From: Verrucomicrobiota bacterium
GTDB taxonomy: Bacteria > Verrucomicrobiota > Verrucomicrobiia > Chthoniobacterales > UBA10450
Reading direction: 5' to 3'
Assembly: GCA_003218135.1 (NCBI GenBank)
Contig: QHNQ01000145.1
Coordinates: forward strand, 1 to 41,183
DNA length: 41,183 nt
Shown: positions 488-27,080 of the stretch, in pieces
How positions within the stretch are numbered: the stretch's first letter is position 1
Layout: every line of letters begins with the position of its first letter
Translations under genes and position numbers: made by a program
The notes under the pieces: generated by a model
What the model saw: only the letters and a program-made list of their open reading frames with translations
What the model was told of the DNA's origin: nothing
Database searches by the model: none

Positions 488-937
488 TTACTTGTCTGCA
501 GAGTTGGGCGAAAGATTTTTTGCAAAGCGGAAGCCAGTTCGGGAGTAACCGAGCGCCTCGTAAAATTGATGCGCGTCTTCGCGGGTGAATCGGGTTGTTA
601 GACTCACTCGCGTAACTCTTTTCTCCACAAAATCTTTCTCAGCTGCGCCAATGAGCGCGCGACCGATGCCGCTGCGCCGATGTTTCCTGGACACAATCAG
701 CGCGGTAATTTTTCCGGTGAAATCGTTATGCTCGTGACTGGCGTGTGTCAGCGTCCCACTCATTCCGCAAACCTGATCGTTGATCTCGGCGACAAATGTG
801 CGAAAGCGCGCATCGCTGAAAATTGATTTCAAACGCCGACGCATTTCGGTGGCGGTTGTTTCGTAGCCGAGCTCGCACATCAGTTGCGCAAGCACTGACG
901 CATCGCCAGGCTCGGCGTATCGAATTCTAAGCTTCAT
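488..937 (-). CDS. GNAT family N-acetyltransferase
   Basis: The product of about 149 residues has the GNAT fold signature. The N-terminus (MKLRIRYAEPGDASVLAQLM) is the usual beta1-alpha1 start. Residues around 90-110 carry the acetyl-CoA pyrophosphate-binding motif RRSGIGRALI. The C-terminal part has the FYEALGYSRTG motif common in this family. It transfers an acetyl group from acetyl-CoA to an amine, but the substrate cannot be read from sequence. The frame is open upstream to 1093, but that stretch is a dispersed repeat, so I place the start at the ATG at 935-937 (an ATG at 943 is also possible). It is co-oriented with cysNC, but the repeat separates them and no functional link is evident. 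Confidence 0.85.
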   Translation of the reverse strand: MKLRIRYAEPGDASVLAQLMCELGYETTATEMRRRLKSIFSDARFRTFVAEINDQVCGMSGTLTHASHEHNDFTGKITALIVSRKHRRSGIGRALIGAAEKDFVEKRVTRVSLTTRFTREDAHQFYEALGYSRTGFRFAKNLSPNSADK

Positions 938-938
938 T

Positions 939-1030
939 GTCATTCCGAGCGAAGTCCAGGAATCCCGTTGAGAAGCCTCAGGGTAATGCCGCGAGCTCTT
1001 TCGACTTCGCTTCGCTCCGTTCAAGATGAC
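939..1030. repeat. Dispersed palindromic repeat, family A, copy 1
   Basis: The element starts GTCATTCCGAGCGAAGTC-like and ends TCAAGATGAC; the two ends are roughly complementary. It fills the gap between cysNC and the acetyltransferase gene and ends just before the cysNC stop codon. Read on the minus strand it encodes VILNGAKRSR...TSLGMT, almost the same peptide as the copy inside cysNC. Confidence 0.8.
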
Positions 1031-1034
1031 GGAA

Positions 1035-3044
1035 TTACTCCTCTGTGCGCAAACGCGATAACAACTGCTCAAGGATCGTCGCGACCGATTCATCGACGGT
1101 TTGCTGGTCCGTGTGCACTACGATCTCGGGGTCGTCTGGAGCTTCGTAGGGGGCATCAATTCCAGTGAACTCACGAATCTCTCCTGCGCGCGCTTTTTTG
1201 TAGAGGTTCTTTGGGTCGCGCGCTTCGCAAACTTCGAGCGGCGCGTCAACGAAGACCTCGATAAACTCCGCGTTGCCCTCGAGCGCGATTTCGCGCGCAC
1301 GGCGGCGATCCATTCGATACGGCGAGATGAACGCGGTGATTACGACCGTACCTGCGTCGGCCATCAGTTTCGCCACTTCACTAACGCGGCGAATGTTCTC
1401 CATCCGATCGTCTGGCGAGAAGCCAAGATTCGAGGTCAAGCCGTGCCGGATATTGTCGCCGTCCAGCACGTAGGTGTGCATGCCACGATGGAACAGATCG
1501 CGTTCGAGTGACTGCGCAATGGTCGATTTCCCGGCGCCGGAAAGTCCGGTCAACCAGATGACTGCTCCCCGATGGCCAGTTCGCAGCGCCCGTTCCCGGG
1601 CTGTAATCTTTTCCTCGGTCCAGAAAATATTTTTGCTTTTTGCGACGGTTCGATCTGTGTAGACGCCGCCGAAAATCGTGCCGCCGCCGCAGATTTTTCC
1701 ATCATCAACGATCACAAATCGGCCAAGATTTGGCACGCGATCGTAATTATCGATGACGAGTGGGCCGCGAGTTTGAATCGCAAGCCGGCCAATCTCGTTG
1801 CGCTGCAACTGTTCGCGCGCGTCGCTTGTCTTTTCGAGCGTGGACGAATCCATCACCTGCTCGATGGAAACGATCTGACATTTCACCTCTTGCGTTGCGA
1901 GGCGCAGATCGTAAAAATGTCCTATCCGTAGGGGTTCGCGCACGATCCAGAACAAATCTGCGTGGAACCGGTTTGTCTCGACCGGTGTTTCGTTCTGGTG
2001 CGATGCGACATAGCCGCGCTCGACAAAAATCTGTTCGGCCAAAGTGATCCCGATCGAATCGCCTGCAACGACTGTCATTCCGGGCGAAGTCGAGGAATCC
2101 CGTTGCGTTACCGTTGAGCTAGCTCTGCGGGATCCTTCTACTCCGCTCAGGATGACCTGTGGCCAGCGCTCAATCGTAGCAACCACTGATGACTTATTTG
2201 CCGGCGAGAATATCAACTCATCTCCCACTCTCAGCGTTCCGGTTTCGATCCGGCCTGCAATGATCCGTCGTCCATCGAAGCGATAAACATCCTGAACACA
2301 AAAGCGCAGCGGAAGATCGACGTCAGACTTTTGCGGCTCCAGCAAGTCGAGCGCTTCGAGAACGTTCGCCGCGCAGTACCATTTCATTTTCATGCTCGAC
2401 CGCGCGACGTTCTCACCTTCACTCGCCGACGCAGGAATAAATGTGTGCGCGTTGAGTCCGAGCTGCTGGAGAAACTTCCGATAGTCCTGTTCGATCTCGC
2501 GAAATCGTTTTTCCGAATAACCCACGAGATCCATTTTGTTTACCACGACGATGAGGTTCCGGATGCCAAGCATACTGAGCAGATAACCGTGACGACGGCT
2601 CTGTTCGCGCACGCCTTCGTCCGCGCCAATCACCAGGATCGCGGCGTCCGCTCTCGACGCGCCGGTGATCATGTTCTTCAAAAATTCCTTGTGCCCTGGC
2701 GCGTCGATAATGGCGTAACGGCGGCGCGCTGTTCGGAAAGGAATCTCCGTCGTGTCGATCGTGACGTTTTGTTTCTGCTCCTCCAGCAGCGCATCGAGCA
2801 GGAATGCAAATTCAAACTCCATCCCTTCCGCCGCGCAGGCCTTCTTAATTTCCTCGATCTTGCCCTCGGGCAGTGAACCGGTGTCATGCAGGATGCGCCC
2901 GATTAGCGTGGACTTTCCGTGATCGACGTGACCAACGAAAACCACGCGCAGCGGAGTAGAAATCGGAGAGCGGATAGCGGATACCGGATAAGATTCTGAT
3001 TCCGACGTGGAGCGTCCTTTCAAATTTCCTTTCGGACGCGTCAT
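1035..3044 (-). CDS. cysNC: Fused sulfate adenylyltransferase subunit 1 / APS kinase (CysNC)
   Basis: This 669-residue protein makes APS from sulfate and ATP (the GTPase subunit works with CysD) and phosphorylates it to PAPS. The N-terminal half is an EF-Tu-like GTPase: P-loop GHVDHGKS at 38-45, DAPGH at 114-118, NKMD at 169-172, then beta-barrel domains to about 465. The C-terminal APS kinase domain runs from about 490 to 669, with Walker A GLSGAGKS at 500-507 and DGDN at 528-531. Two parts look foreign. Residues 297-324 are encoded by a dispersed palindromic repeat, and residues up to about 27 lie in another inverted repeat. Neither breaks the frame. cysD lies 40 bp upstream in the same direction. 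The ATG at 3044 has a GGAAAG seven bases before it, one of few plausible ribosome sites in the window. Confidence 0.93.
2073..2157. repeat. Dispersed repeat family A, copy 2, inside cysNC
   Basis: This copy, about 85 bp, runs from TGTCATTCCGGGCGAAGTCG to GCTCAGGATGAC and lies wholly within the cysNC reading frame. It adds 28 codons (residues 297-324, [10 protein letters not shown]...TSPGMT) to the beta-barrel part of the GTPase half, without stop or frameshift. The sequences on either side (ATIERWPQ and [11 protein letters not shown]) read as continuous EF-Tu-like domain when the insert is removed. Confidence 0.85.
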
Positions 3045-3081
3045 AGTAAAATCTTTCCGGCATCCGCTATCCGCTCTCCGG
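2964..3081. repeat. Inverted repeat spanning the 5' end of cysNC
   Basis: A left arm at about 2964-2990 (GGAGAGCGGATAGCGGAT then ACCGGAT) and a right arm at about 3056-3081 (CATCCGCTATCCGCTCTCCG) are near-perfect complements separated by about 65 bp. The element covers the cysNC start codon and its first 27 or so codons, and fills the whole cysD-cysNC gap. Confidence 0.7.
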
Positions 3082-3084
3082 CTT

Positions 3085-3903
3085 TCATAAAAATCCCTTC
3101 GCCCTTAATTTCTGCATCGCATTCCGTTCGTAATGGTCTTGTGCACGGCCGGCGCGCTCGGTTGTTTTTGTCGCCTCTAGCTCGGCGACGATCTCGTCGA
3201 TTGTAGATGCGTTGCTTTCGATTGGATGCGTAATGGGGCTGCAGCCTAACGAACGGAAACGTTTTCCGTTTCGGGCAAAATACATCTTCGGGATGGGAAT
3301 GTTTTCTCGCTGGATGTAGCGCCAGACGTCGATCTCGGTCCAATCGAGCAACGGTTGCACGCGGACATGTTCGCCCTTTGCTGTAGTGGTAACGAATTGG
3401 CTCCAGAATTCCGGAGGCTGATCTTTGTAGTCCCATTCGAACTGCGCGTTGCGCGGCGAAAAATACCTCTCCTTCGCGCGCGTGGGATCTTCATCGCGGC
3501 GAATGCCGGTGATGAGCGCATCCCATTTATATTCCGCAAGCGCCTGTTGTAACGCGACGGTTTTTAGCTCGTGCGTCACTGTTACCGGATCATTCGTCTC
3601 GTACCCGATGCCGCGTGCGCGCGCCTCGGTATTAATTTTCACGATCAAATTCAGGTTGTGATACTTCGTCGCCCATTCACGGAACTCCAGCATTTCTGGA
3701 AACTCATAAGTCGTGTCGATGTGCAAAATCGGAAATGGTACGCGTCCAAAAAAAGATTTGCGCGCCAGCCAGATGAGAACGTTTGAGTCCTTGCCCATCG
3801 ACCATGGCGTCGCGATGTTTTTGAAAGCGTGATACGCCTCGCGAAAAATAAAAATGCTCTGGTTCTCGAGAGCGTCCAGATGCGTACGCGCTACTTCAGT
3901 CAT
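3085..3903 (-). CDS. cysD: Sulfate adenylyltransferase subunit 2 (CysD)
   Basis: CysD catalyses adenylylation of sulfate to APS, driven by GTP hydrolysis in CysN. This 272-residue product is full length. It has the PP-loop SMGKDS at 35-40 (SVGKDSS-like in other CysD proteins), [16 protein letters not shown] downstream of it, and [15 protein letters not shown] in the middle. The C-terminal [16 protein letters not shown] is the typical family tail. The ATG at 3903 gives an N-terminus ([13 protein letters not shown]) matching known CysD proteins residue for residue; an in-frame ATG at 3924 would add seven residues. It is the first gene of a cysD-cysNC operon. A 288-bp gap separates it from divergent nuoB; I see no riboswitch there. 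Confidence 0.95.
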
Positions 3904-4191: not shown

Positions 4192-4731
4192 ATGTCAGAG
4201 AAGCGAGCGACGGCCTACGATTCCAAGATCGAAGGCAACATGATTTTTACACGCTTCGATGCGGCGCTGAATTGGGTCCGCAAAAACTCGCTCTGGCCAA
4301 TGCCGATGGGCCTGGCTTGTTGCGCGATCGAGTTGATGGCAACGGCTGCATCGCGCTTTGACATTGCGCGGTTTGGCGCGGAAGTGATGCGCTTCTCGCC
4401 GCGGCAATGCGATGTGATGATCGTGGCCGGCACGGTGACCTACAAAATGGCTCTCGCGGTGAAGCGGATCTATGAGCAGATGCCGGAGCCGAAATGGGTG
4501 ATCGCCATGGGCGCATGCGCTTCCACAGGCGGTATGTACCGCTCTTACGCTACACTGCAGGGAATCGATCAGCTTATCCCCGTCGATGTTTACATCTCTG
4601 GTTGCCCACCGCGTCCGGAAGCGTTGCTAGCTGGTTTGATGAAATTGCAGGAGAAAATTTCCCGGCACCAGTCGTTCAGGGACCAGAAACCGAAGCTCAC
4701 TGAAAAGCTCGAGGAAATGCTCGCATCATGA
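4192..4731 (+). CDS. nuoB: NADH-quinone oxidoreductase subunit B (NuoB)
   Basis: NuoB carries the N2 [4Fe-4S] cluster at the end of the electron path of respiratory complex I, next to the quinone site. The product from ATG 4192 is 179 residues, normal for the family. Visible signatures are [18 protein letters not shown] (with the adjacent Cys pair), MGACASTGG and [13 protein letters not shown], which together supply the four cluster ligands. The frame is open upstream to 4000, but that extension has no family character and would exceed the normal length, so I reject it. nuoA is not upstream. nuoC follows after 98 bp containing a double hairpin. No Shine-Dalgarno sequence is seen. Confidence 0.95.
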
Positions 4732-11067: not shown

Positions 11068-11177
11068 GTCATTCCGAATCAGGGGAGGAACCCCGCCCTT
11101 TGGTTCGTTGCACGGAGACGTCCACTTGCGTAATGCTTCGGCAATCGAGAGATCCTGCGGTTCGCTCAGGATGACAG
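11068..11177. repeat. Dispersed repeat family A, copy 3
   Basis: It begins GTCATTCCGAATC and ends CTCAGGATGACA, with the family-type internal AGGAACCCCG and GAGAGATCCTGCGG. It fills the gmhB-kdsB gap and ends a few bases before the kdsB ATG. Confidence 0.75.
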
Positions 11178-15128: not shown

Positions 15129-15216
15129 GTCATTCCGAGCGAAGTGAGGAATCTCTGATTATTGGTTTGGCGGCGAACAGAATAATCCAGAGATGTTTTG
15201 CTTCGCTCTACATGAC
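15129..15216. repeat. Dispersed repeat family A, copy 4
   Basis: It starts GTCATTCCGAGCGAAGTGAG and ends CTTCGCTCTACATGAC. An internal complementary pair (ATCTCTGATTATT and AATAATCCAGAGAT) makes it a long hairpin. It sits in the divergent purE-aroK gap (15017-15269), which otherwise holds nothing I can assign. Confidence 0.75.
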
Positions 15217-25134: not shown

Positions 25135-25165
25135 TGTCATTCCGAGCGAAGTCGAGGAATCTCTC
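25135..25165. repeat. Half copy of dispersed repeat family A (copy 5)
   Basis: Only the left end is present, TGTCATTCCGAGCGAAGTCG followed by AGGAATCTC. The right end (GCTCAGGATGAC type) is missing, so this is a truncated copy between divergent dedA and the ABC exporter. Confidence 0.65.
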
Positions 25166-26985: not shown

Positions 26986-27080
26986 CTGTCATGTTGAGCG
27001 AAGCGAAACATCTCTGGATGCCGAGGCAATCAACGCGGAGAAAGAAATATTGAGATTCTTCGCTTCGCTCAGAATGACAG
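26986..27080. repeat. Dispersed repeat family A, copy 6
   Basis: It starts CTGTCATGTTGAGCGAAGCG and ends CTTCGCTCAGAATGACAG; its ends are complementary. It lies between the ABC exporter and the acetyltransferase gene and ends 10 bp before the latter's ATG. Confidence 0.75.

Follow-up and report, generated by a model that had tools for sequence, protein, structure and literature searches.

A TGTC-headed palindromic repeat lies in frame within a predicted loop of CysNC in a verrucomicrobial genome

The cysNC gene and its insert

The window, by which we mean the whole stretch of DNA analyzed here (41,183 nucleotides), carries a cysNC gene with a palindromic repeat inside it.

1035–3044, minus strand: cysNC, a fusion of the sulfate adenylyltransferase large subunit with adenylylsulfate kinase, 669 amino acids; the frame is open across the repeat
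2073–2157, minus strand: in-frame REP dimer in cysNC, encoding V297–T324

The insert is 85 nt long, and its 28 codons (2073–2156) encode residues V297–T324. An initial annotation of this DNA had described a dispersed palindromic repeat in frame within cysNC. That observation is confirmed, as the frame 1035–3044 runs through the repeat, and the interpretation attached to it is partly supported. Read from the translation, GHVDHGKS and GLSGAGKS, which we take to be the motifs of the GTPase part and the kinase part of CysNC, are both intact.

The insert had been assigned to the GTPase domain. However, the Pfam GTP_EFTU match spans residues 33–234 and the insert comes after it, in domain 2; a weak Pfam domain-2 match stops at residue 292, immediately before the insert. 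The predicted structure of CysNC, built with 44 relatives, has strands at residues 284–293 and 330–335 and a pLDDT below 50 over residues 296–320. This predicts a floppy, disordered loop for the insert. The whole model is moderate (mean pLDDT 80.6, pTM 0.56), and Foldseek retrieves EF1A chains with it, the CysN chain 1zun_B ranking 11. According to the model, the insertion site is a loop between two strands of the EF-Tu-like domain 2. Folded as RNA, the stretch gives a z score of −3.57, and as single-stranded DNA one of only −1.35. Rfam shows no match in 800–3200 up to E = 1.

A second inverted repeat straddles the start of cysNC (2964–2988 and 3056–3080), with arms of 25 nt that are 96% complementary. 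Of the two arms, one is translated, close to the N-terminus of CysNC, where some relatives have a similar peptide (e.g., NPQSAIRNPQS). The fetched stretches of this genome, 92,355 bases in all, contain no further copy of this repeat at up to 5 mismatches.

The repeat unit and its copies

The repeat in cysNC is composed of two opposed hairpin units that follow the pattern GTCAT-NNN-GAGCGAAG(T)CGA-N'N'N'-ATC. The units and copies in the window are as follows.

2131–2156, minus strand: hairpin unit 1 in the reading direction, stem CCT/AGG, 2 mismatches to the pattern
2074–2099, plus strand: hairpin unit 2, opposed to unit 1, stem TCC/GGA, 1 mismatch
938–1030, minus strand: repeat copy directly before a GNAT acetyltransferase gene, in the same frame and ahead of the Pfam domain
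11151–11175, minus strand: single unit, 2 mismatches
15129–15216, no strand assigned: opposed unit pair
25136–25161, plus strand: single unit, exact pattern match
26988–27078, no strand assigned: opposed unit pair with differing stems, GTT/AAC and TCT/AGA

At up to 3 mismatches, two versions of the pattern match the window 4 and 5 times, whereas shuffles lead one to expect 0.00 and 0.01 matches. For the analysis of pairing, 52 units were chosen by their fixed positions alone from the window and from fetched stretches of the same genome; these stretches were located with the cysNC copy as query, which biases the set towards its stem types. The free stem positions are paired in 144 of 156 cases, against 86.2 ± 5.7 after shuffling; none of 10,000 shuffles reached 144. 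The stem types include TCC/GGA, CCT/AGG, GTC/GAC, GTT/AAC, and TCT/AGA. Additionally, 28 of the 52 units form 14 opposed pairs, with GTC facing outward in every one.

At up to 1 mismatch, the unit is matched 38 times in the window's genome. Of the genomes searched, it is present in 37 of 37 from the family and in 1 of 21 from the rest of the order, and the reversed pattern, used as a control, matches none of them. The initial annotation had proposed that its view would fall if the segment were found in CysN of lineages that otherwise lack the repeat; the near absence of the unit outside the family and the rarity of the insert among relatives leave that view intact. A second, GTAG-type unit is also dispersed: the window's genome holds 31 matches, and the unit occurs in 37/37 family genomes and 3/21 others, with 2 matches altogether for its reversed control. 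Its stems covary as well (32/34 paired positions against 18.8 ± 2.5, among the 17 exact matches that were listed from the window's genome). The window itself holds no GTAG unit at up to 3 mismatches.

By BLAST, 30 repeat sites were located in fetched stretches of the window's genome. We translated 23 open frames that cross such sites and, leaving out partly overlapping genes, scanned 10 of them with Pfam; a Pfam family is present in 5, in each of which the best domain stretch is downstream of the repeat, and absent from the other 5. Among the examined sites of this genome, cysNC harbors the sole TGTC copy within a conserved gene. A GTAG-type copy lies inside the RNase D gene of the same genome, so the count of intragenic copies depends on the repeat family.

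The copy ahead of the GNAT gene was said to encode, in the same frame (939–1030), a peptide nearly identical to the one in CysNC. The frame is indeed the same, but the peptide is 57% identical. Within 938–1093, this copy ends in ATGACA, followed by ATGAAG, and it may thus supply the start codon. In four species (L090, L092, L093, and L109), a TGTC repeat stands immediately before a gene starting MxYxELHxxSAFSFLRGG, presumably the start of a DnaE-type polymerase.

The reading frames of 19 repeat copies are open in 49 of 114 cases, and shuffles give 50.4. Because of this and of the differing frames used in different proteins, the repeat shows no special fitness for translation, contrary to the idea that the element is suited to being read through.

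Filled and empty cysNC sites among relatives

Among relatives of the window's gene, we compared the 27 in which the loop is covered; 26 have no insert, and only one genome, G034, has it, with a spacer between the units nearly identical to that of the window's copy. The insert-free relatives mostly hold ~8 residues (NAPANGPA type) between ERW and VAGDS. The net gain is therefore 23 residues, and ~5 native codons appear to have gone. The earlier count of 28 extra residues thus holds for the codons of the insert and not for the lengthening of the protein, and the flanks that had seemed to join smoothly once the insert is removed are not the original ones.

A wider search in named genomes, for the most part records of Verrucomicrobia from soil and freshwater, yielded 80 loci, a set that overlaps the one of 27 relatives. 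The site is empty in 79 of the 80; the exception, L243 (QHQU01000148.1), carries a REP at this position of cysNC, again in the same frame, and its close kin are without it. The expectation that most relatives would lack the insert is accordingly borne out (present in 1/27 and 1/80, in overlapping sets). A cysNC tree of 41 rows needs two changes, which are forced by well-supported branches. By this comparison of sequences, the window's gene and the G034 gene share one insertion, and the more distant L243 gene gained its REP independently.

Two side observations concern these genomes. G034 has two CysNC genes (G034:C97 and G034:C179), one with the insert and the other without it and containing a stop, so the bin may be mixed. 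L253 (QIAJ01000090.1), labelled Acidobacteria, has a CysNC that falls within the verrucomicrobial clade, through mis-binning or transfer.

Repeats in loops of other core proteins

Profiles of the repeat-encoded peptides were searched in 35 genomes of the genus, and 20 of the listed matches were fetched, with few exceptions as open frames of at least 300 residues (one with an inner stop was taken and several others of that sort were passed over). In 5 of the 20, the repeat lies within a conserved protein: PheT (two genomes), UvrC, RNase D, and a FadB-like protein. In the other 15, it lies by eye at or ahead of the gene start, L091 and L105 being ambiguous. Since the searches list the best matches, there are at least this many in-frame genes; since peptide searches are blind to out-of-frame copies, we claim no in-frame excess. 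At least two frames of the repeat are read in different proteins. In UvrC, the Pfam RNase H domain (337–544) encloses the insert (442–464), and in PheT the insert falls between two domain matches. RNase D and the FadB-like protein each have their best domain stretch to one side of the insert.

To compare the loops across species, orthologs of these four proteins were gathered by gene, not by repeat, and aligned. Loop DNA was scored for the TGTC unit (up to 3 mismatches), the GTAG-type unit (up to 4), and heptads (up to 3 in 21 bases), thresholds that were chosen after some loops had been inspected. The counts are alignment rows, not genomes, so that one genome may give two rows, and only rows with at least 17 loop residues were kept. 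The TGTC unit occupies the loop in 6/28 rows of UvrC, 5/28 of PheT, 4/30 of RNase D, and 3/29 of the FadB-like protein; the GTAG-type unit is found in 12/30 rows of RNase D, including that of the window's own genome, and in 6/29 of the FadB-like protein; and heptad repeats fill the UvrC loop in 11/28 rows. None of these three kinds of repeat was recognized in 11 rows of UvrC, 23 of PheT, 14 of RNase D, and 20 of the FadB-like protein. Of 1400 same-length windows elsewhere in these genes, 3 passed the TGTC threshold and none the GTAG or heptad thresholds; the TGTC threshold was also reached by one control genome window of PheT and two of the FadB-like gene. The UvrC rows G029 and G016 (5 mismatches) and G018 (6) resemble decayed copies and were left uncounted. 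Collectively, the aligned sequences indicate that the same loops hold unrelated repeats in different species: TGTC or GTAG units in RNase D and the FadB-like protein, and TGTC units or heptads in UvrC.

The PheT tree needs three changes with L164 scored as insert-free; the other piece of L164 carries the insert. With L164 relabelled, two changes would suffice by a hand count without a rerun: a gain shared by G015/G028/G033/G023 and another in G014. Resolution is poor in the UvrC tree, which needs five changes, two of them forced.

In the FadB-like protein (L200–L229), the aligned stretch measures mostly 59–65 amino acids in the TGTC and GTAG loops and mostly 60–65 in native ones. It is as if the repeat had replaced native sequence instead of lengthening the loop. 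We also considered whether a FadB-like loop bearing the motif LHGEPEGAEGPN is a further repeat and rejected this: a search with the DNA of a single loop of this kind hits mostly the fadB site, once in each genome, and the other matches are short, weak, and confined to the middle of the loop, so that it looks native. In the RNase D loops L171 (G015) and L173 (G034), the repeat seems to contain a second, nested insert, the two differing in sequence.

Selection on the inserts and their similarity

To reveal how selection acts on the inserts, we compared the cysNC genes of G000 and G034. Outside the insert, 13% of bases differ, with a dS of 0.662 and a dN of 0.038; within the insert, there are 1 synonymous difference (23.3 sites) and 8 nonsynonymous ones. 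These values indicate that cysNC outside the insert is under purifying selection and that the insert peptide is not visibly so.

Third-position differences in the insert are below those of all other windows of equal length in the PheT, RNase D, and FadB-like pairs (0/717, 0/293, and 0/605 windows as low, respectively). In cysNC, 67/556 windows are as low as the insert, and in three UvrC pairs, 238/457, 51/459, and 7/459. The windows overlap one another and so are not independent trials, and the set of inserts is biased to recognizable copies, hence to conserved or young ones. The inserts are more similar between species than synonymous sites predict, with a mixed picture in the UvrC pairs. This extra similarity could come from recognition bias, from exchange of short tracts, or from a constraint on the DNA or RNA.

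Search for a mobilizer

Y1 transposase matches occur in 33 of the 35 genus genomes. At 8 loci and 4 further stretches, taken from far more Y1 matches, no TGTC unit adjoins a Y1 gene; at L067, one TGTC pair lies ~1.8 kb from the Y1 gene. By eye, no target-site duplication is seen next to the cysNC inserts, and the native loop is partly replaced. REPtrons, in which a Y1 transposase stands beside the units, are described for GTAG REPs. Two REPtron-like arrangements were observed here: a Y1 match (4254–4547) with GTAG-type units on both sides at G024:C67:4112-4768, and a Y1 match (3233–3514) adjoining a GTAG-type unit at G009:C132:3004-3514.

Origin and fate of the insert

Starting from the observed insertion and frame, the covarying hairpins, the shared and independent gains, and the unrelated repeats in one loop, we consider the cysNC segment most probably a REP dimer of the CGTC/TGTC type that is a tolerated passenger in a permissive loop. 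A REP dimer would have entered cysNC in the common ancestor of the window's and G034 genes, displacing perhaps five native codons, and would by chance have come to lie in frame and stop-free within a permissive loop of domain 2. For these reasons, it would be translated in the cell as a disordered loop of 28 residues. The rest of the enzyme, presumably active, would remain under purifying selection, and the insert peptide would be a passenger of which the open frame alone is kept. Such landings would recur in the lineage and last mainly in a few tolerant loops that are used by different repeat families in different species; no mobilizer of the repeat was found at the Y1 loci examined.

The similarity of the inserts speaks against a passenger, as a neutral insert as old as the split should differ more between the species. 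It might instead be kept for use, either as a hairpin of mRNA or DNA (pausing, RNA stability, or protein binding) or because the loop peptide is selected, and the strong RNA fold (z −3.57), the low number of third-position changes seen in inserts from several genes, and the single synonymous difference at 23.3 sites, compared with the dS of the remaining cysNC, would agree with such a role. However, 8 of the 9 changes in the cysNC insert alter the peptide, the frames differ between proteins, and sister species have the same loops without a repeat or with another one, which makes retention for use unlikely. Two gains of the repeat by cysNC, both in one frame, would suit a dedicated protein-coding palindrome, evolved for translation as are the Rickettsia elements with their conserved peptide; we judge this highly improbable, because the frames are open no more often than in shuffles, at least two of them are used in different proteins, and the examined sites of the window's genome are mostly outside genes.

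An assembly or binning artefact would have to produce the insert in frame in a second genome, in a gene that differs at 13% of its bases outside the insert, and a different copy at the same site in L243. It is hardly plausible, even with a draft genome of 214 contigs and 86.65% completeness and with two CysNC genes in a possibly mixed G034 bin. We give practically no credence to a segment ancestral to CysN and lost elsewhere. Its presence in three genes of two clades could be read in this way, but the segment copies a repeat with 38 such units in the genome, and many losses would be required.

Beyond the tolerated passenger that we favor in cysNC, a wider proposition is possible, though rather doubtful: loops of core proteins in this family of soil Verrucomicrobia may be standing landing sites, filled and overwritten in turn by TGTC REP dimers, GTAG REP dimers, and heptads, with native sequence replaced and exchange between copies or species keeping the inserts more alike than the gene around them. 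If this were true, it would amount to a continuing, repeat-driven engine of loop diversification. Filled and empty orthologous sites, in a lineage represented here by soil metagenomes, capture genome repeats turning into protein sequence. Moreover, one loop with several repeat families in many species forms a natural series in which to ask whether repeat-derived residues are merely tolerated or taken into use. They also call for caution, as annotated protein loops from such genomes may be repeat DNA.

Comparison with known repeat systems

CGTC REPs, with TGTC named as a variant head, are described by Di Nocera and colleagues (2013; PMC3733652), and the comparison below refers to the excerpted parts of that paper. 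In these, the head is unpaired and often TGTC, as in the cysNC copy; GTC is fixed by the pattern in our 52 units. The first stem pairs are A–T and T–A, and the AT...AT found here agrees with this, although the agreement is not independent, having been used for unit selection. CGTC REPs are mostly opposed dimers and lack association with a transposase, both of which apply here (the latter at 12 loci or stretches and L067). In contrast, their stem of 8–9 bp and loop of 4–5 are not found; the stem here has five Watson–Crick pairs (two fixed and three covarying), followed by GA opposite GA, and later pairs are uncertain. Likewise, their tail of three bases is mostly CCA, whereas the cysNC copy and most listed copies continue CC/TC. 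Given the agreement in head, first pairs, dimers, and transposase and the disagreement in stem length and tail, we call the repeat a variant of the CGTC/TGTC-type REP dimer. Unlike the CGTC REPs in those parts of PMC3733652, the TGTC unit comes from soil Verrucomicrobia.

The repeat resembles MITEs in being short, dispersed, palindromic, and without a transposase of its own; no target-site duplication was seen by eye beside the cysNC inserts, and no matching transposase was found at the Y1 loci examined. Intragenic REPs are known in several species, and in the same excerpts, GTAG ones are most numerous in Opitutus terrae, a verrucomicrobium. Similar to these, the repeats here are REPs in frame in a verrucomicrobium, and a GTAG family fills some of the same loops; the cysNC repeat, by contrast, belongs to another super-family. 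That insertions of this kind could be neutral where they fall in linkers or loops is already suggested there. Unrelated repeat families in one loop across orthologs were not found in the literature searched, which covered few subscription papers.

Finally, the initial annotation had likened the element to the Rickettsia RPE, and the likeness holds: in both, palindromes lie in frame in unrelated conserved genes (here CysNC, UvrC, PheT, RNase D, and the FadB-like gene), and the protein tolerates them. RPE are reviewed, in the portion of PMC10969869 consulted, as ~150 bp long with a conserved encoded peptide; the repeat here is ~85 bp, is read in more than one frame, and shows neither signs of coding adaptation nor a single conserved peptide. 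In its excerpted parts, PMC3733652 equates RPE-4 and RPE-6 of Rickettsia with CGTC REPs.
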